Assembly (NCBI GenBank): GCA_030431455.1
Contig: JAUIJE010000011.1
Coordinates: forward strand, 186,001 to 250,000
Length of the DNA: 64,000 bases
Reading direction: 5' to 3'
Source: a bacterium
Lineage (GTDB): Bacteria > Myxococcota > UBA727 > JAUIJE01
Part shown: positions 21,347 to 57,353 of the stretch, piece after piece
Layout of the letters: the number at the start of each line of letters is the position of its first letter
Numbering within the stretch: position 1 is the first letter of the stretch
The notes under the pieces: generated by a model
Told to the model about the DNA's origin: nothing
Seen by the model: the letters and a program-made list of their open reading frames with translations, nothing else
Database searches by the model: none
Position numbers and translations under genes: made by a program

Positions 21347-21391
21347 GCGCTTCCGCCAAAAACCCGCACGACAGGTTTCCGGCGGAAGCGC
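21347..21391. repeat. Inverted repeat pairing the tRNA-Sec 3' acceptor strand with its trailer
   Basis: GCGCTTCCGCC (21347-21357) and GGCGGAAGCGC (21381-21391) are perfect 11-bp complements 23 nt apart. The right arm is the 3' acceptor strand of tRNA-Sec plus two C of its tail. The left arm is therefore a second copy of the 5' acceptor sequence in the trailer. On the minus strand, the spacer also holds AAACC...GGGTTTTT, a weak terminator-like stem with a T-run. Confidence 0.8.
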
Positions 21392-21477
21392 ACGAGATTC
21401 GAACTCGCCTAGGTGGTTTCTCACCCCCTACATTGGTTTTGAAGACCAAGCCGGGCACCAGCACCGGACGCGCTTCC
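21383..21477 (-). tRNA. selC: Selenocysteine tRNA, anticodon UCA
   Basis: 95 nt. An 8-bp acceptor stem, GGAAGCGC/GCGCTTCC, begins GGAAG as in E. coli tRNA-Sec, with discriminator G. The anticodon arm TTGGT-CTTCAAA-ACCAA carries TCA at 21442-21440. A long variable arm of about 7 pairs (TAGGGGG...CCACCTA) has one mismatch. The T arm is CGAG-TTCGAAT-CTCG. The 8+5 acceptor/T geometry and long variable arm identify tRNA-Sec, which is charged with Ser and converted by SelA. The genome encodes CCG, not CCA, after the discriminator, so CCA must be added enzymatically. Confidence 0.95.
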
Positions 21478-48480: not shown

Positions 48481-50037
48481 TCAGTTGAAGTAGAGGTTGT
48501 AGTCGTCGCGGTAGAGGCGGCTGAGCACCGGGTCGCTCAGACGGTTGACCGGGCTGCCTTGGGGGCGGGACATGTCTGGGGGGAACACCAGGGTGGTGGG
48601 CCACACCGCGTCGGTGAGAAAGCGGGTCGCGAGCCCGTCGAACGCCACCGGGTCCGCGCGCCGCGGCCTCGCCACCACGAACCCCCACTGACCAAACGAG
48701 GGAATCGGCACATGGTAGGGCGTGACCTCGACGCCGGGCCGCTCGGCAAAGGCGTGCTCGACGGTGGACACGATGCACCAAAACGCGGACCTTGCCCGGT
48801 AGGGCGAGGTGGCGTGGGTGGCGAAGGTCCCGCCCGGCCGCAGGCGTTTTTGAATCAGCCGGAACATCGCGTCGGAGTAGAGCTTGGACAGCGACAGCTC
48901 CGAGGGGTCGGGCAGGTCCATCAGCACGACGTCGTAGGCACCGCGGTCGTCTTCGACGAAGGAGAGGGCGTCTTGGTGCACGACCCGCACCCGAGGGTCG
49001 GAGAAGCTGCGGCGGTTCAGCTCGCGCAGGAGGGGCTGGTCGCGGAACAGTTCGGTCATGCGCTCGTCGAGGTCGACGAGGGTGACGGATTGGACCCCCG
49101 GGTGTTGGAGCACTTCGCGGGCGGTCATGCCGTCTCCGCCGCCGAGGATGAGCACGTCCCGGGGAGCGGGGTGGCTGCGCATCGCGGGGTGCACGAGCAG
49201 CTCATGGTAGCGGTACTCGTCGACGGTGGAGAACTGCAGCTGCCCGTTGAGATACAGCCGGGTGTCGTCCCGCCAGCGGGTGATCACGATGCGCTGGGTG
49301 CGGGTGTTCTCCGCGTACAGGATCTCGTCCTGGTAGAGGGCCTCTTCGAGGGAGGTGGTCAGGCGCTCGGCGGCGAGGAACAGGCTGGCGAGGAGCACGA
49401 GCCCGCTGGTGGCGCTGAACAAAAGCGTGCGGCGGTGGCGGCCAAACCCTTGGGGCGCCACCGCCACGAGCAGGACCAATGCCACGGCAAGGTTGGACAC
49501 CCCGGCGAGGAGGGCGGCGCGGGCGAGTCCGAAGAAGGGGAGCAGCACGAACGGAAACGCGATCGACGCGGCGAGGGCGCCGATGTAGTCGGCGGCGAGC
49601 ACATTGGAGACCGATTCGCGCAGCGACGAGCGGTTCTTGACCAGGCGCACCACGAGGGGGATCTCCGCGCCGACCATCGCCCCCACCGCGAACAGCCACA
49701 GCAGCAGCAGGGTCTCGTGCGACTCCGTGAACGCGAAGGTGACAAAACCCACCAGGCCGGTGGTGCCCCCCACGAGCCCGATGGCGATCTCGAGCCCCAC
49801 AAACCAAGTGAGCAAATGGTCCTGCACGAACCGGGAGGCCCAGGCCCCGGCCCCCATCGCGGACAAGAACAGCCCGATCACGATGGAGTATTGGGTGACG
49901 CTGTCGCCGAGTAGATAGCTGGCGAGGGTGCCCCCCACGAGTTCGTAGACCAGGCCGCAGGTCGCGACCACGAACACGCTTGCCACCAAAGGGGCGGCGA
50001 GGTCGGGCCGGTCCTCAGGCGCGGGGGTGGGCTCCAC
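48481..50037 (-). CDS. Membrane-anchored spermidine-synthase-like aminopropyltransferase
   Basis: 518 residues. The N-terminal 220 residues hold about seven helices (FVVATCGLVYELVGGTLASYLLG; IVIGLFLSAMGAGAWASRF). The C-terminal domain has the spermidine-synthase motifs QLQFSTVDEYRYHELLVHPAM, VLILGGGDGMTAREVLQHP and LVDLDE, then VLMDLPDPSE. Such fusions probably make or modify polyamines or related products at the membrane. GTG start. It is the middle gene of a five-gene minus-strand cluster, DUF4178 to the unknown membrane protein. Confidence 0.85.
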   Translation of the reverse strand: MEPTPAPEDRPDLAAPLVASVFVVATCGLVYELVGGTLASYLLGDSVTQYSIVIGLFLSAMGAGAWASRFVQDHLLTWFVGLEIAIGLVGGTTGLVGFVTFAFTESHETLLLLWLFAVGAMVGAEIPLVVRLVKNRSSLRESVSNVLAADYIGALAASIAFPFVLLPFFGLARAALLAGVSNLAVALVLLVAVAPQGFGRHRRTLLFSATSGLVLLASLFLAAERLTTSLEEALYQDEILYAENTRTQRIVITRWRDDTRLYLNGQLQFSTVDEYRYHELLVHPAMRSHPAPRDVLILGGGDGMTAREVLQHPGVQSVTLVDLDERMTELFRDQPLLRELNRRSFSDPRVRVVHQDALSFVEDDRGAYDVVLMDLPDPSELSLSKLYSDAMFRLIQKRLRPGGTFATHATSPYRARSAFWCIVSTVEHAFAERPGVEVTPYHVPIPSFGQWGFVVARPRRADPVAFDGLATRFLTDAVWPTTLVFPPDMSRPQGSPVNRLSDPVLSRLYRDDYNLYFN

Positions 50038-50043
50038 CGGGCG

Positions 50044-50268
50044 TCAGCCTCGAATCGCGGCGGACAGAATGATCGCCAAACCGATGAACGCGCAGCCGAT
50101 GACGATGCCCAGCGACGTGTTCTGGTCGTCTTCGATCTCCTTTCGAATCGAAAACGGGGTGAGCCATTCCATCACGATCACGCTCACCCCGAACAGGGCC
50201 GCGCCGACGATGAAGTAGATGACGGTGGGCACCAAGGCCCAAAGCTCCTTCACGATTTGTTCTGGCAT
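50044..50268 (-). CDS. DUF350 membrane protein
   Basis: 74 residues with two hydrophobic helices (LVPTVIYFIVGAALFGVSVIVM; SLGIVIGCAFIGLAIILSAAIRG) joined by a charged loop (FSIRKEIEDDQNTS), matching the DUF350 repeat unit. The function is unknown. GGAGAAGC precedes the start. It ends 6 nt from the next gene of the operon. Confidence 0.88.
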   Translation of the reverse strand: MPEQIVKELWALVPTVIYFIVGAALFGVSVIVMEWLTPFSIRKEIEDDQNTSLGIVIGCAFIGLAIILSAAIRG

Positions 50269-50286
50269 CGCTTCTCCTCGGCGGCG

Positions 50287-50493
50287 CTACTTGCCGCCTC
50301 GATATCCACCACCCCCCACCGTGCGGCGGGAGACAAAGAAAAATGTGCCCGCCCGGCCCCGGCGGCGTGAGCCTTCGCGCACGTCGATCTTCTCCGCGTA
50401 CGAGGAGGCCACCCCGATCCCGGCGATGCTCGCGCCGAGCGCAGACGCGGTGAGCACCGAGAACAGGCCGAACACCAGCGCGAACCGGATCAT
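50287..50493 (-). CDS. Small membrane protein of the DUF4178/DUF350 cluster
   Basis: 68 residues. The N-terminal helix (FALVFGLFSVLTASALGASIAGIGVAS) is followed by a basic region and a C-terminal GGGGYRGGK. No family is recognised. It lies between DUF4178 and DUF350 genes on the same strand with short gaps (24 and 18 bp) and a GGAGG site upstream, so it is likely part of that operon. Confidence 0.6.
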   Translation of the reverse strand: MIRFALVFGLFSVLTASALGASIAGIGVASSYAEKIDVREGSRRRGRAGTFFFVSRRTVGGGGYRGGK

Positions 50494-50517
50494 CAGAGGC
50501 CTCCTCGACGTGAACCG

Positions 50518-52545
50518 TCAGTCGTCGTCGTCATCGTCCCCCCACCGCTTCTTCTCGAACGCGGGCCCGCGCCCGATCCCGAACAACCCCAACAGACCAA
50601 ACACCACCGCCAGGATCGCGAAGTAGCGCGACATCACCGCGCCCTCGACGACCTTGATCGTGACTTGGTTCTGGTGGCTGGCCTCGCCCTTGACCAACAG
50701 CTGGTATGTTCCTGCACGCGGGAGCTTGATCAGGGCCGAGCTGCTCTTGGACCCTTCGGTCCAGTGCTCGCCCCCTTCGTACCCCGAGTAGTACTCCCAC
50801 TCGGTGAAGAAGTCGGCCACCGCCTGGCCTTGGTCGTCGACGAACGCCCCGTCCACCGCCATCCAGCCGTTGCTCAGGTTGGCGTACAGCTGGACCTCGA
50901 GCAGCCCCGCTTTGCTGACCGCAAACGGCTCGGTGAAGTATTCTTCTTTGTAGTCGTCGGCCTCGACCGACAACGTCGCCGCCGGCTTGCCCACCAGGTA
51001 CGACGACCACAGCACCAGCCCGAGGTTGAGCACCGCGAACAGCATCCCCGCCACGCCCACCGCCCGCCACAGGGGCGACACCGGCGAGGGTTGGTTGGGG
51101 GCGATCCCGATGGGGCGCGGCATCTCCTCGTCGGGGATGCGGAACGCCTCCTGGACCTCGTCGGGGGGGATGTACTCGCCGAGGAAGTACTCCTGCTCGT
51201 CGTCGGTGCGCTCGCCGCTCAGCACGTAGGGGGGCGCGATCCAGTCGTCGTACCAATGGCTGTCCCCGACCTTGGCGATGTAGGGCAGCTGGCCGTTGAC
51301 CCAGATCGCGGTCTCCTCCGCGCCCTCGAAGTACTTGTACGTGCGGCCCCCCGGGCCCTTCGACGCGGCCTTGCGATAGGTCTTCATCGGCGGGGGGGGC
51401 TCTTTGAGCTCGTCGGTGAGGTTCCAGTGGCCGTTCTCGAGGGTGAGCCAGCGGTAGCCTTCGTCCTCGGCAAAGAGCATGAACTCGTCGTTGAGGTAGC
51501 GACCCCACGCGTCCTGGCTCATGAACCGAATGTGGCCGGTGACCACGTACCGCGTGCCCCGGAGCTGGCCGACCTTGCCGAGGCGCAGGGGCACGGTGGG
51601 GCCGCCGCCGAGCGCCGCGCCCCCCTTTTCCCCGAGGAGCGACGGCTCGGCCCCGGAGGTGTCGATCTGTTCGTGGCAGCTCGGGCAGACCACCGCGTGG
51701 ACCGCGCGCCCGGCCACCAGGGGCACGTGGGTGGCGCAGGCGGGGCAGGTCAGCCGGTCGCTGGTGAGATCGTTGACCGTGCCGCAGTATTCACAGTTGA
51801 CCCGCCCGTCGACGGCTTGGCTGGTGTCGAGGGCGCCCCCGCAGGCAAAGCAGTTGAGCGACGCGGTGTCGTCGCCGGTGACCTGATGTCGGGCGCGTCC
51901 CCCCGCCGCGGACGCGGGGGCGAAGCTGCGGTCGCGGTAGGCCTGTTCGAAGTCGACCTCAATGTCATTGCGGCCGATGTGGACCCCGACGAACAGGCGG
52001 GCGATCTCGTCGTCAAACTCGACGGTGACGAAGCGGTTGGCCCCGGCCACCAAATCCAAAAACGGGGTCTGTTCGCCCGGGAGCACCAAAAACGGGAGCT
52101 GGCCTTCTCCCCCTTCGCAGGTCGCGGTGCCGCGCTCCTGGACCATCATCATGTCGGCCCCGATGGGGATGCGGGTGCCGGGATCGGCCCGCTCGAAGGT
52201 GCCCGCGGGGAGCTTCTTGTTGGCCTGGCGGCTGAGGGTGAAGTTGTCCTCGTCTTGCGAAATCCAGAACGTCTTGCCGTCGGGCTCGACGAGGTACCAC
52301 TCGTCCCAGAACCCTTTTTTGTACCCGTAGCGCACCCGGCCCACGACCTTGAAGCGGCGGTCCCGCAGGCGCCCGGTGGCCCCGAGGTGCAGCGGGCCCG
52401 ACGGCTCGGCGAGGGCGGCCATCTCGCCGGCGATGCGGACCGCGCCTTGGTCGATCACCACCGCGCTCTTGCAGGTGCCGCACACCGTGACCTGGGCAAA
52501 GCGCTGTTCCCATTCGAGCCCGGCGCCGCACGAGGGACAATTCAT
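50518..52545 (-). CDS. DUF4178 protein with zinc ribbons and a C-terminal membrane anchor
   Basis: 675 residues. An N-terminal zinc ribbon (CPSC...CGTC, residues 4-26) leads into a DUF4178 domain (RRFKVVGRVRYGYKKGFWDEWYLVEPDG). Two or more ribbons sit in the middle (CFACGG...CEYC; CPAC...CPSC). A second DUF4178-like domain follows (RYVVTGHIRFMSQDAWGRYLNDEFMLFAEDEGYRWL). A transmembrane helix, a beta domain, and a last helix (YFAILAVVFGLLGLFGIG) with an acidic tail complete it. The function is unknown. This gene combination recurs in several bacterial phyla. Confidence 0.85.
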   Translation of the reverse strand: MNCPSCGAGLEWEQRFAQVTVCGTCKSAVVIDQGAVRIAGEMAALAEPSGPLHLGATGRLRDRRFKVVGRVRYGYKKGFWDEWYLVEPDGKTFWISQDEDNFTLSRQANKKLPAGTFERADPGTRIPIGADMMMVQERGTATCEGGEGQLPFLVLPGEQTPFLDLVAGANRFVTVEFDDEIARLFVGVHIGRNDIEVDFEQAYRDRSFAPASAAGGRARHQVTGDDTASLNCFACGGALDTSQAVDGRVNCEYCGTVNDLTSDRLTCPACATHVPLVAGRAVHAVVCPSCHEQIDTSGAEPSLLGEKGGAALGGGPTVPLRLGKVGQLRGTRYVVTGHIRFMSQDAWGRYLNDEFMLFAEDEGYRWLTLENGHWNLTDELKEPPPPMKTYRKAASKGPGGRTYKYFEGAEETAIWVNGQLPYIAKVGDSHWYDDWIAPPYVLSGERTDDEQEYFLGEYIPPDEVQEAFRIPDEEMPRPIGIAPNQPSPVSPLWRAVGVAGMLFAVLNLGLVLWSSYLVGKPAATLSVEADDYKEEYFTEPFAVSKAGLLEVQLYANLSNGWMAVDGAFVDDQGQAVADFFTEWEYYSGYEGGEHWTEGSKSSSALIKLPRAGTYQLLVKGEASHQNQVTIKVVEGAVMSRYFAILAVVFGLLGLFGIGRGPAFEKKRWGDDDDDD

Positions 52546-52576: not shown

Positions 52577-53614
52577 TCACCGCACCACGAGGCGGCCGCG
52601 GCCCGCGCGCACACCGCCGACGACGACGGCGGGGATGCCGTCCTCCTGCATGGCCTGGCACGCGCCCTGCGCCTCGTCGGCGGGCATGGCGATGAACAGG
52701 CCCCCCGAGGTCTGCGGATCACACAGAAGGCGCACCGCCGGCCGCTCCGCGTCGTCGACATCGACCACCGCGGCGACGTCCTCCCAGTTGCGCTTCAGCC
52801 CCCCGGGCAACACGCCCTCGGTCGCGAACTGCAGCGCCCCGTCGAGCCAGGGCATGTCGTCGAGCGAAAACACAAAATCGATGTCCCCGGCCGCGAGCAT
52901 CTGGCGTGCGTGGCCGAGCAACCCGAAGCCGGTGATGTCGGTGCAGGCGTGCACCTCCGATTCGAACACCGCGTCTTTGGCCCCGCGGTTGAGGGTGGTC
53001 ATCGAGGCGACCATCGTGTCGATCTGCGCGTCGCTGGCGAGACCCTTCTTCAGGGCTTGGGCCACCGCCCCGGTGCCGAGGGGCTTGGTGAGGATCAGGG
53101 CGTCACCGGGGCGGGCCCCCGTCTTTTGCCAGATGCGTTCGGGGTGCACGCGGCCATTGACGCTCAAGCCGTACTTGAACTCTTCGTCGCGCACGCTGTG
53201 GCCGCCGACGAGGGCCACGCCCGCCTCGTCGAGGATCGATTGACCGCCGGCCAACGTCTGCTTCAGCACGTCGACGCCGAGGGTGGCGAGGGGAAAACAC
53301 ACGATGTTCAGCGCGCTGAAGGGCTCGCCCCCCATCGCGTACACGTCGGACAACGCGTTGGCCGCGGCGATCTGGCCAAACGCGAAGGGGTCATCGACGA
53401 TGGGGGTGAAAAAATCCACCGTCATCACCAGGCCGGTCCCGTCCTCGAGAAGGTAGACCCCGGCGTCGTCGGCCACGTCGGTGCCAACCAGGACGCGCGG
53501 ATCGCGCGACACCGTCAGGTCATCGAGGGCGTGAGCCAGGTCCCCTGGCCCGATCTTCGCCGCTCAACCACCGCCGCTGACGGTCGCGGTCAACTTGACC
53601 TCGCTCTTCGCCAT
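52577..53614 (-). CDS. selD: Selenide, water dikinase, a selenoprotein (in-frame UGA = Sec17)
   Basis: 345 residues when the UGA at 53566-53564 is read as selenocysteine. Codons 1-34 lie upstream of the GTG that ordinary prediction would use. They encode MAKSEVKLTATVSGGG-U-AAKIGPGDL, and Sec17 and Lys20 align with the catalytic Cys17 and Lys20 of E. coli SelD (346-347 residues). Downstream, the family motifs are VLVGTDVADDAGVY, IAAANALSDVYAMGG, GGHSVRDEEFKYGL, TDITGFGLLGHA and LLCDPQTSGGL. The enzyme makes selenophosphate from selenide and ATP. GAGGAGCAC precedes the ATG at 53614. It is divergent from selA. Confidence 0.95.
53533..53551 (-). promoter_or_regulatory. bSECIS hairpin in selD
   Basis: On the minus strand, GGGCCAG / CTGGCTC pairs over 7 bp (one G-U) around the loop GGGAC. 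It starts 12 nt after the UGA, and the apical loop starts 20 nt after it. The G-starting apical loop in the 16-37 nt window is what SelB needs. Confidence 0.75.
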
Positions 53615-53675: not shown

Positions 53676-55064
53676 ATGACCCCCGAGCAGAAAGAAGCCC
53701 TGCGCGGCCTGCCCCAGTTGGGGGCGTTGCTCGACCGCGACGACGTGAGCGCCTTGTGCGCGGCCCACGGCCGGAGCCGGGTCAAGCGTGCCCTGCAGAC
53801 CCTGCTCGCCTCCGCCCGCGCCCACATCCTCGCCGGGGGCCGGCGGTTGGATGCCCGCGACCTCGTCGAGCGGGCCGTCTTCGCCCTCGCCGCCGCCGAA
53901 GGCACATTGCGTCCGGTGATCAACGCCACCGGGGTCATCGTGCACACCAATCTCGGCCGCGCCCCGTTGGCGATCCCCGCGATGGCCGCGGCCACCGCGG
54001 TGGCCGCCGGGTACAGCGCGCTGGAGTATGACCTCGACGCGGGCGCGCGGGGGAGCCGGCACGGCCACGCGGTGCAGTTGCTTTGTGGGCTCACCGGGGC
54101 CGAGGCCGCGGTGGTGGTCAACAACTGCGCGGCCGCGGTCCACGTGGGTCTGGCCGCGCTGGCCGCGGGCCGCGAGGTGGTGGTCAGCCGCGGCGAGCTG
54201 GTCGAGATCGGCGGGGGCTTTCGGGTGCCCGATGTGATGGCCCAGTCCGGGGCGGTGTTGCGCGAGGTGGGCACCACCAACCGCACCCACGCGCGCGACT
54301 ACGCCGACGCCGCGGGGGACGACACCGCGCTGTTGCTCAAGGTGCACCGGTCCAACTTCGACGTGGTCGGCTTTGTGGCCGAGGTGGACGTGCCCGGCCT
54401 GGTGGCGGTGGGCCGGGACCGGGGGGTGCCGGTGATGGTCGACGCCGGTGCAGGGGCATTGGAGAGGCTGCCCGGGTGCCCGGACGAGCGGCCGATCAAA
54501 GAGCTCATCGCCGCGGGGGCGGACCTGGTCTGTTTCTCCGGGGACAAGCTGCTCGGCGGCCCCCAGGCCGGCATCCTGGTGGGGCGCGCCGACCTCATCG
54601 AGCGGGTGCGGCGCCACCCCATGATGCGGGCCATGCGGCCCGACAAGCTGTGCCTCGCCGCGTTGGTCGAGACGCTGCGCCTCTGGCGCGATCACCCGGC
54701 GCAAATTCCGCTCTACGCGATGTTGCACGCGGACGAGGCTTGGCTGCAAAAACGCGCTGAAGCGATCCAGCAACATGTGACCGCGGCGGGGGGACCGCGG
54801 CTCGGCCTCCGCGCGTCGCGGGCCCGGGTGGGGGGCGGCAGCACCCCCACCACCACGTTGCCCTCGGTGGCGTTGGGGTTGCAGCCGGCCGACGTGGGCA
54901 TGGCGGCGGACGCGGTCACCGCGCGCCTCCGGGCCCGGGGGGTGCCGGTGGTGGCCCGGGTGCACGACGGCGAGGTGTGGCTGGACCTGCGCACGGTGTT
55001 CGCCACCGAAGACGAGGACCTGGCCGCGGCGGTGGTGGACCTCGGTCGACCGGAGGCGGCGTGA
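53676..55064 (+). CDS. selA: L-seryl-tRNA(Sec) selenium transferase
   Basis: 462 residues, the usual bacterial length. INATGVIVHTNLGRAPL and LTGAEAAVVVNNCAAAV are SelA signatures. FSGDKLLGGPQAG contains the PLP lysine (about residue 290). GGGSTPTTTLPSVAL and DLRTV follow near the C-terminus. It converts Ser-tRNA-Sec to Sec-tRNA-Sec with selenophosphate as a large ring oligomer. It starts 61 bp from the divergent selD. GATACT at 53658-53663 is a possible -10. The ATG lacks a Shine-Dalgarno, and the stop overlaps the selB GTG. Confidence 0.97.
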   Translation: MTPEQKEALRGLPQLGALLDRDDVSALCAAHGRSRVKRALQTLLASARAHILAGGRRLDARDLVERAVFALAAAEGTLRPVINATGVIVHTNLGRAPLAIPAMAAATAVAAGYSALEYDLDAGARGSRHGHAVQLLCGLTGAEAAVVVNNCAAAVHVGLAALAAGREVVVSRGELVEIGGGFRVPDVMAQSGAVLREVGTTNRTHARDYADAAGDDTALLLKVHRSNFDVVGFVAEVDVPGLVAVGRDRGVPVMVDAGAGALERLPGCPDERPIKELIAAGADLVCFSGDKLLGGPQAGILVGRADLIERVRRHPMMRAMRPDKLCLAALVETLRLWRDHPAQIPLYAMLHADEAWLQKRAEAIQQHVTAAGGPRLGLRASRARVGGGSTPTTTLPSVALGLQPADVGMAADAVTARLRARGVPVVARVHDGEVWLDLRTVFATEDEDLAAAVVDLGRPEAA

Positions 55065-56965
55065 CCGGTCACGCCCACCTCGTGCTCGGCACCGCCGGCC
55101 ACATCGACCACGGCAAGACCAGCCTGGTGCAGGCCCTGACCGGCGTCGACACCGACCGCTTGCCGGAGGAGAAGGCCCGCGGCATCACCATCGAGCTTGG
55201 CTTCGCCGCCCTCGACGTGGGCGGCACGCGCATCAGCATTGTGGACGTGCCCGGGCACGAGAAGTTTGTGCGCACCATGGCCGCGGGGGCGGCGGGCCTG
55301 GACGCGGTGATGCTCCTGGTCGCGGCCGATGACGGCATGATGCCGCAGAGCCGCGAGCACCTCGCCATCTGCGAGCTGCTCGGGGTGCGGCGCGGGCTGT
55401 TGGTCATCACCAAGGCCGACCTCGTCGACGAGGAGATGCTCGAGCTGTGCACCGCCGAACTCCGGGACGCGGTGGCCGGCACGTTCCTCGACGGGGCGGA
55501 CGTGATCGTGACCTCCGCCACCACCGGGCGCGGCATCGACGCGTTGCGCGCGGCCATCGCCGACCTCACCGCCGACCTGCCCGCCCGGTCCGCGACCGGG
55601 GGCGCGGTGCTCCCGGTGGACCGGGTCTTTTCCAAGGCCGGCTTTGGCGCGGTGGTCACCGGGACCCTGGTCCAGGGCGCGCTCGCGGTGGGCGACGACG
55701 CCTGGCTCGTGCCCGGGGCCGCGGGCGCGGTGAGCGTGCGCGGCTTGCAGGTCCACGGCGAAGCCGCGGACCAGGTCGAAGCCGGCGTGCGCTTGGCCGT
55801 CAACCTCCGCGGGGTCTCACACCACGACGTGCACCGAGGCGCGGTGCTGTGCACACAAGGCGCGGTCACCGCGTCGGCCGCGCTGCACGCGGCGGTGACG
55901 GTTCTCGACGGGGAGGACCTCCCCGCCGAGAACGCCGAGGTCTCGCTCAGCCTCGCCACCAACGACGTGCTCGCCCGGGTCGTGCCTTTACAAACCGAGG
56001 ACGCGGCCGGCGGTCGGCTGGTGCGCTTTGTTTTGCAGGAACATTGCGCGGTGTGGCCCGGGCAGCGGTTTGTCATGCGCCGGCCGGGCGCCCACGGCGC
56101 CGCCACCTTCGGTGGCGGCCGCGTCCTCGACCCCGCGCCCCCCTCGTTCAAGGGCGCGTTCAAGGTCTGGCAACAGACCGCCCGGGCCCTGGCCGGGGAC
56201 GACGCCACCGAGCAGGTCTTGGCCTTGGTGGCCGAGGCCCGGGCCGACGGTCTCGACGAGAAAAGCCTGGCCGCGCGCCTGCCCAGCGGGTTGGACCTGG
56301 CCGCGACCCTGGCCGCGCTGGTGGACGCGGGGCGCCTCGCGCGGGGGGCGAACGACCGATTCGTCGATTGCGCAATCATCGAACCAGTGGCCCTACAGCT
56401 CGCCGAGGACGTGGCGCGGTTTCATCAGGAGCGGCCGGTGCTGCGCGGCCCGGCCCCGGGGGACCTGGCCGCGGCCTTGCCCGCCACCACGCGCGATTTG
56501 TGCGGCCCCGCCCTCGACCGGCTGGTGGCGCAGGGGGCGCTCGGGGTCGAGGACGGCCGGGTGTTCGACCCCGCCCGGGCCGCGGACCCCCGGCGGGACA
56601 AGGCGCTCGGGGCGGCGGGCGCGGTCCTGACCCGCGCGGGCCTGACCCCGCCGCTCATCGACGAGTGGCGCGGCGAGACCGGGCTCGACGACGTGACCTT
56701 CGCGGACGCGTTGAGCGAGCTGAAGCGCACCGGGGCCGCGGTGCAGCTCGCGTCCAACCTCTGTTTTTCGGACCGGGCCCTGGCCGGGCTCGCCGACCGC
56801 GTCCGCGCCCACTTCACCGCCCACGACGTGCTCGACACCGCGCAGTTCAAGGCGCTGGGGGGCGGCCTGTCGCGCAAACACGCGATCCCGCTGTTCGAGT
56901 GGTTGGACAAGACCGGCGTGACCCGCCGCGACGGGGACGTTCGGCGCAAAGGCCGGGACAGCTAG
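55061..56965 (+). CDS. selB: Selenocysteine-specific elongation factor
   Basis: 634 residues. It starts at GTG 55061, overlapping the selA stop (GTGA). G1 AGHIDHGKTSL, switch ARGITIELGFA, G3 DVPGHEKFV and G4 ITKAD form the GTPase. DRVFSKAGFGAVVTGTLVQG begins domain 2. The C-terminal 270 residues are four winged-helix domains that bind the SECIS hairpin (ending LFEWLDKTGVTRRDGDVRRK). It delivers Sec-tRNA-Sec to the ribosome at recoded UGA codons. Its stop is only 21 bp from the convergent candidate selenoprotein. Confidence 0.97.
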   Translation: MTGHAHLVLGTAGHIDHGKTSLVQALTGVDTDRLPEEKARGITIELGFAALDVGGTRISIVDVPGHEKFVRTMAAGAAGLDAVMLLVAADDGMMPQSREHLAICELLGVRRGLLVITKADLVDEEMLELCTAELRDAVAGTFLDGADVIVTSATTGRGIDALRAAIADLTADLPARSATGGAVLPVDRVFSKAGFGAVVTGTLVQGALAVGDDAWLVPGAAGAVSVRGLQVHGEAADQVEAGVRLAVNLRGVSHHDVHRGAVLCTQGAVTASAALHAAVTVLDGEDLPAENAEVSLSLATNDVLARVVPLQTEDAAGGRLVRFVLQEHCAVWPGQRFVMRRPGAHGAATFGGGRVLDPAPPSFKGAFKVWQQTARALAGDDATEQVLALVAEARADGLDEKSLAARLPSGLDLAATLAALVDAGRLARGANDRFVDCAIIEPVALQLAEDVARFHQERPVLRGPAPGDLAAALPATTRDLCGPALDRLVAQGALGVEDGRVFDPARAADPRRDKALGAAGAVLTRAGLTPPLIDEWRGETGLDDVTFADALSELKRTGAAVQLASNLCFSDRALAGLADRVRAHFTAHDVLDTAQFKALGGGLSRKHAIPLFEWLDKTGVTRRDGDVRRKGRDS

Positions 56966-56986: not shown

Positions 56987-57298
56987 TCAGCCCACGAACA
57001 GGCCGCAGTCGGGGCACTCGCGCGGGCCGGGGGCGAAGCGGTGTTGGCACGCGGGGCACACGATCTCCGCCGCGTTGTGGTCGACGACGCGGATGCCGTC
57101 GTCAGGGTGCAGCACCGCGTGGGCGCGCGGGACGTCGGGGCCCGCGACCGCGAGCCGGTACTTGGTGCCTCAACGGTTGAGGCAACCGTCCGACGGGGCG
57201 AGCACGCGGGTCTCGATGTCGGCCGCGGCCAGAGACCGCGCGAGCTCTTTCAGGCGGGCCAAGCTGCCCTCGGCCACGATGGCGGCGACGTTGTGCAT
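56987..57298 (-). CDS. Candidate new selenoprotein: CxxxU domain plus zinc ribbon
   Basis: 103 residues with selenocysteine at position 43 (UGA at 57172-57170). The N-terminal part (MHNVAAIVAEGSLARLKELA, then AAADIETRVLAPSDGC) and YRLAVAGPDVPRAHAVL after the UGA form a beta-alpha-beta unit like DUF2007/'putative signal transducing protein' domains. C39xxxU43 sits in the turn. The C-terminus is a CPAC...CPDC zinc ribbon (81-98). GGAGGA is 6 nt before the ATG, and codon use is coding-like on both sides of the UGA. A SECIS-like hairpin follows. It is downstream of the SUMF1-type gene on the same strand, with a 55-bp gap, and convergent with selB. Read as an ordinary stop, the UGA would leave 42 residues. 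The function is unknown; a redox or metal role is inferred. Confidence 0.85.
57139..57156 (-). promoter_or_regulatory. bSECIS hairpin in the candidate selenoprotein
   Basis: GGCTCGC / GCGGGCC pairs over 7 bp (one U-G) around the tetraloop GGTC. The loop begins 21 nt after the UGA, almost the same distance as in selD. The GGTC loop is the same as the start of the E. coli fdhF SECIS loop. Confidence 0.75.
57166..57184. repeat. 9-bp perfect inverted repeat spanning the recoded UGA
   Basis: TGCCTCAAC-G-GTTGAGGCA. The UGA lies within one arm (57170-57172), so the mRNA can fold at the recoding site itself. Confidence 0.85.
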
Positions 57299-57353
57299 CG
57301 GTTCCTCCAGGCCCCATCGTACGGGCCGGCGCCGGTTTGCGCCACCAGCGCGC

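Follow-up and report, generated by a model that had tools for sequence, protein, structure and literature searches.

A short DG-like zinc-ribbon protein encoded beside selB in a Myxococcota genome is a probable selenoprotein with a candidate redox loop

In the 64,000-nucleotide stretch of DNA analysed here (the window), the gene located at 56987..57298 on the minus strand very probably encodes a selenoprotein of about 11 kDa with selenocysteine (Sec) at position 43; by sequence comparison, its product is assigned to the protein DG superfamily as a divergent short variant. The best overall explanation, to which we give a probability of about 0.6, is that of a selenoprotein of the short DG form in which the loop bearing Sec43 and Cys39 would act as a redox switch. 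A preliminary description of this DNA had already proposed a selenoprotein, and this reading is now supported by aligned homologues with UGA or Cys, by a hairpin at a fixed place after the UGA, by the presence of tRNA-Sec and/or SelB in every genome with a UGA form, and by selection on the region downstream of the UGA.

Translation from 57298 to 56987 with TGA read as U gives a product of 103 residues with one internal UGA, found at 57170..57172 (minus strand); the terminal stop is a TGA as well. The product starts with MHNVAA, contains the motif C39LNRU43GT, and ends with a zinc ribbon, C81PAC84...C95PDC98 (57005..57058, minus strand), followed by GLFVG. The Cys39 codon (57182..57184, minus strand) would provide the likely resolving partner of Sec43 in a CxxxU arrangement, and a GGAGG ribosome-binding site is present at 57304..57308 (minus strand). 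The single in-frame UGA, the C39xxxU43 motif, the C-terminal CPAC...CPDC ribbon and the strong ribosome site had all been pointed out in the preliminary description, and each of them was confirmed in the sequence.

The first relatives with a UGA, obtained from relatives and public genome contigs, belonged to a Myxococcales genome, an Eisenbacteria genome and two genomes labelled Myxococcota or Deltaproteobacteria; one UGA form, L107, was recovered in the initial search for the family. A profile of the first UGA relatives revealed more of them, from the same phyla as the Eisenbacteria and Myxococcota genomes. A search of plasmids gave no match, and the region obtained for L170 (G197), which proved to be on a wrong contig, was left out. 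In the resulting collection, which is a sample and not a census, the UGA occupies the matching codon in 14 of 14 short-form genes (the window gene and 13 further loci), and many relatives carry a Cys at the position aligned with Sec43. Both kinds of homologue that the preliminary description had proposed to look for, those with Cys at position 43 and those with UGA at the same site, were thus found, and they span the UGA. The 13 other short-form loci with UGA at the matching codon, together with a GC content at codon position 3 of 0.90 before the UGA and 0.97 after it in the window gene, indicate that the UGA is there by more than chance. The short Sec proteins fall into two types according to the residues shortly after Sec: these include LAVA in the window protein, L038-L041, L128, L131 and L132, and LLV at that place in L107, L139, L141, L142, L143 and L146.

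Folding and comparison of 14 Sec genes and 10 Cys genes revealed a SECIS-like hairpin at 57139..57156 (minus strand), GGCUCGC-GGUC-GCGGGCC, which has a 7-bp stem and a GGUC loop and begins some 14 nt downstream of the UGA, as had been described before. All 14 Sec genes have a stem of 6-8 bp at an identical distance from the UGA, always with GU in the loop; in contrast, a comparable hairpin was observed in only one of the 10 Cys genes, the other nine forming at most four pairs. Over the whole set, four of the six stem pairs show two-sided changes, for example from G-C to C-G between branches, and the two short Sec types differ in the amino acids encoded at the hairpin site. Resampling of synonymous codons yielded such a hairpin in 3-25% of the trials per gene (p 0.03-0.25), and the combined p of 0.0012 presumes independent genes, which these are not. 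SelB and tRNA-Sec, together with this hairpin just past UGA43, would place selenocysteine at position 43. L086, from genome G376, has Cys but falls within a Sec branch, and a hairpin of 6 bp is still present where its SECIS would lie; this perhaps reflects a recent loss of Sec, although chance can also explain it.

The preliminary description had stated that all the Sec genes are present, and this proved correct within the window itself: tRNA-Sec was found at 21381..21477 on the minus strand (ARAGORN, Rfam RF01852), selA at 53676..55064 on the plus strand (Pfam SelA, E 8.6e-128), selB at 55061..56965 on the plus strand (Pfam, with TIGR00475 over its cut-off in this genome), and selD at 52577..53614 on the minus strand (translation, Pfam). 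Among the 14 genomes with a UGA form, tRNA-Sec scored above the Rfam cut-off in 13, the exception being G743, and SelB above its own cut-off in 13, the exception being G195; each genome has at least one of the two, and most have both. Gaps in the draft genomes could account for the missing matches to tRNA-Sec in G743 and to SelB in G195. Several genomes in which only Cys forms were found have no match to tRNA-Sec or SelB above the cut-off. The selD gene is itself a selenoprotein gene with an in-frame UGA (SGGGU34AAKIGP), and a simple ORF caller places its start too far downstream, at 53512. Adjoining it, a cluster on the minus strand (48481-52545) encodes a spermidine-synthase-like protein, a DUF350 protein and a DUF4178 protein with zinc ribbons.

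The region downstream of the UGA is under purifying selection, a point that the preliminary description had raised as a check. For the closest pair, L040/L041, dN/dS is about 0.23 before the UGA and 0.30 after it, and other, more diverged pairs mostly agree with this on the 3′ part, with dS saturated or unreliable in the pairs that include the window gene. These data bear on the alternative that the UGA really ends translation or results from an error of assembly, leaving a peptide of 42 residues and a dead 3′ part. A second, perfect 7-bp hairpin, GCCTCAACCGTTGAGGC, overlaps the UGA (57167-57183, minus strand) and could hinder decoding; on inspection by eye, none of the other Sec genes has it. 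Nevertheless, the UGA is conserved in 14 genomes, all of them equipped with Sec genes, selection persists after it, and the four cysteines of the C-terminal ribbon are invariant across 48 relatives, making a stop or an error highly improbable.

The relation of the window protein to a named family was established with the curated model NF049953, 'zinc ribbon-containing (seleno)protein DG', which it matches with an E value of 1.9e-16 over model positions 61-170 of 172, with 60.4 bits against a curated cut-off of 130 and hence below it. In a Pfam search, the same protein gave ribbon matches only, all below the cut-off. Since NF049953 is matched by all 48 family members tested, the earlier suggestion of an undescribed family is not supported in the form in which it was made. 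A 'hypothetical protein DG' was predicted in 2025 by deep-Sep in two Desulfosediminicola strains, and UGA and Cys homologues were mentioned along with it (PMC12013277); Table 1 of a 2026 review lists protein DG with the motif GUxG (PMC13188914). In one order rich in DG, NF049953 scored over its cut-off in 208 of 258 genomes, and the DG proper sequences read there comprise the Sec forms CAKGUGGP (L177) and CSKGUGGP (L178), as well as forms with Cys, for example CGKGCCG. The window protein shares with DG the domain, the C-terminal CPxC...CPxC ribbon, and Sec or Cys in a matching CxxxU/CxxxC loop (CLNRU in the window protein, CAKGU in L177), and in both genes a SECIS-like hairpin follows the UGA, at 14 nt in the window gene and at about 10 nt in DG. 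However, it has RUGT instead of GUxG, with one residue less after Sec, the N-terminal ribbon (model positions 1-60) is missing from it, its frame starting at the DUF2007-like domain, and its gene lacks the hslU neighbour of DG. A loop motif that matches up to one residue, and the extra N-terminal ribbon of DG proper, led us to consider the window gene a short DG variant. The named DG, for which UGA homologues elsewhere had been mentioned only in general, is thereby widened by two branches of short proteins; given that the curated model misses the short forms, their genes have probably been labelled truncated in annotations. A full-length member, L023 (G000:C4:316585-317079), which has both ribbons but lacks a UGA, is present in the same genome as the window.

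On a tree of 48 members, four changes are required to explain the distribution of Sec, and well supported branches force at least three of them; the Cys genes L086 and L088 are nested within a Sec branch. According to this tree, Sec and Cys have replaced one another repeatedly in the family. The repeated exchange, in a small fold that is not of the thioredoxin type, makes this family a good test case for the use of Sec in bacteria.

An AlphaFold2 model of the window protein (mean pLDDT 85, pTM 0.57) showed a beta-alpha-beta-beta-alpha domain, resembling DUF2007 or half of a ferredoxin-like fold (57101..57298, minus strand), followed by the ribbon, with Sec43 in the loop that joins strands 2 and 3. 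Foldseek with this model gave no match below E 0.001. The DUF2007 structure 2hfv was among its top rows, with a probability of 0.98, an E value of 0.23 and a TM-score of about 0.45; the model resembles the small fold of DUF2007 (PF09413), a putative signal transducing protein, with the ribbon and the Sec loop as additions in the window protein. A weak profile match to PF09413 was obtained in 4 of the 48 relatives (best E 0.0014) and none in the window protein itself. The DUF2007-like fold proposed in the preliminary description thus has weak support, from these four relatives and from a 2hfv match of high probability but insignificant E value. A profile search of solved structures revealed one weak match, 9sfa (E 0.0003), the rest being mostly ribbon-only, and our literature search found no paper linking DUF2007 with selenocysteine or with zinc ribbons.

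A Cys is located 1-7 residues before Sec in 13 of the 14 Sec proteins, the exception being L139, and the spacing ranges from CU to CxxxxxxU among the short Sec proteins. The proximity of this Cys and the position of Sec in the loop suggest a redox pair in a flexible loop, which would work as a switch and not as a fixed thioredoxin-type site; moreover, the variable spacing and the lack of such a Cys in L139 argue against a fixed CxxU active site. We therefore propose, tentatively and at somewhat less than even odds, that Sec43 and Cys39, both in the loop after strand 2, would form a reversible selenenylsulfide, that this loop would be the redox switch altering the binding of partners by the protein, and that the ribbon would serve as a binding or structural module. 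Sec43, Cys39 and the ribbon cysteines could instead bind a metal or metalloid, or transfer it, with no redox switching. The Cys-rich loops (CCxGGCxC) of the Cys relatives L034, L035 and L108, the four invariant ribbon cysteines and the variable spacing are compatible with this possibility, but the Cys partner is absent in L139, and no metal-handling genes were recognised among the neighbours, most of them unannotated, in the Sec loci looked at; we consider a role in metal handling rather unlikely.

The functional loop of PII proteins is also located between strands 2 and 3, and the PII-like PstA (4d3h) was among the top Foldseek matches to the window model (E 0.03, TM-score about 0.4), but no sequence link between PstA and the window protein was found. 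That the short proteins represent a distinct, widespread subfamily, with Sec in a PII-like loop, that uses selenium to sense redox state, or senses selenium status, and signals to a partner through the zinc ribbon would be a speculative extension, which we hold to be improbable.

Regarding the genomic context, the short Sec forms have no conserved neighbours; shared genes were observed only in the close pair L040/L041, generic short-chain dehydrogenases aside. In contrast, DG proper, whether in the Sec or the Cys form, is mostly located downstream of xerC-hslV-hslU: hslU directly precedes DG in 11 of the 16 larger DG-proper loci (L203-L218), and it is within 1.5 kb in all seven of the loci L077-L083. 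This arrangement raises the possibility that the protein acts on a protease complex, as its regulator or adaptor, and that the family tunes HslUV or its substrates by redox state. However, hslU was found neither beside the window gene nor in the Myxococcota family loci examined, two Sec DG copies (L209 and L210) follow an NtrC-type response regulator instead, and neighbourhood alone does not show function, so this role seems doubtful for the window protein. We take the hslU link as a lead, towards proteolysis, for the DG family only and not for the window gene; for DG proper it is the first testable functional lead found in this analysis. Judged by their titles, the literature matches for selenoprotein and HslU look unrelated.

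The adjacency of selB was also considered as a functional clue and was rejected, because in other genomes where both genes could be placed they are on different contigs, which indicates that their closeness here is a local accident. The distance of 21 bp between the window gene and the selB stop given in the preliminary description is correct; the strand had not been given there, and the two genes, being on opposite strands, are a convergent pair. Upstream of the window gene, on the same strand and at a short distance, lies an FGE/SUMF1-like gene (Pfam), and another same-strand upstream neighbour, also at a short distance, has a sequence that to us resembles pyruvate carboxylase. Given these short distances, it is possible that the window gene forms an operon with the genes upstream of it.
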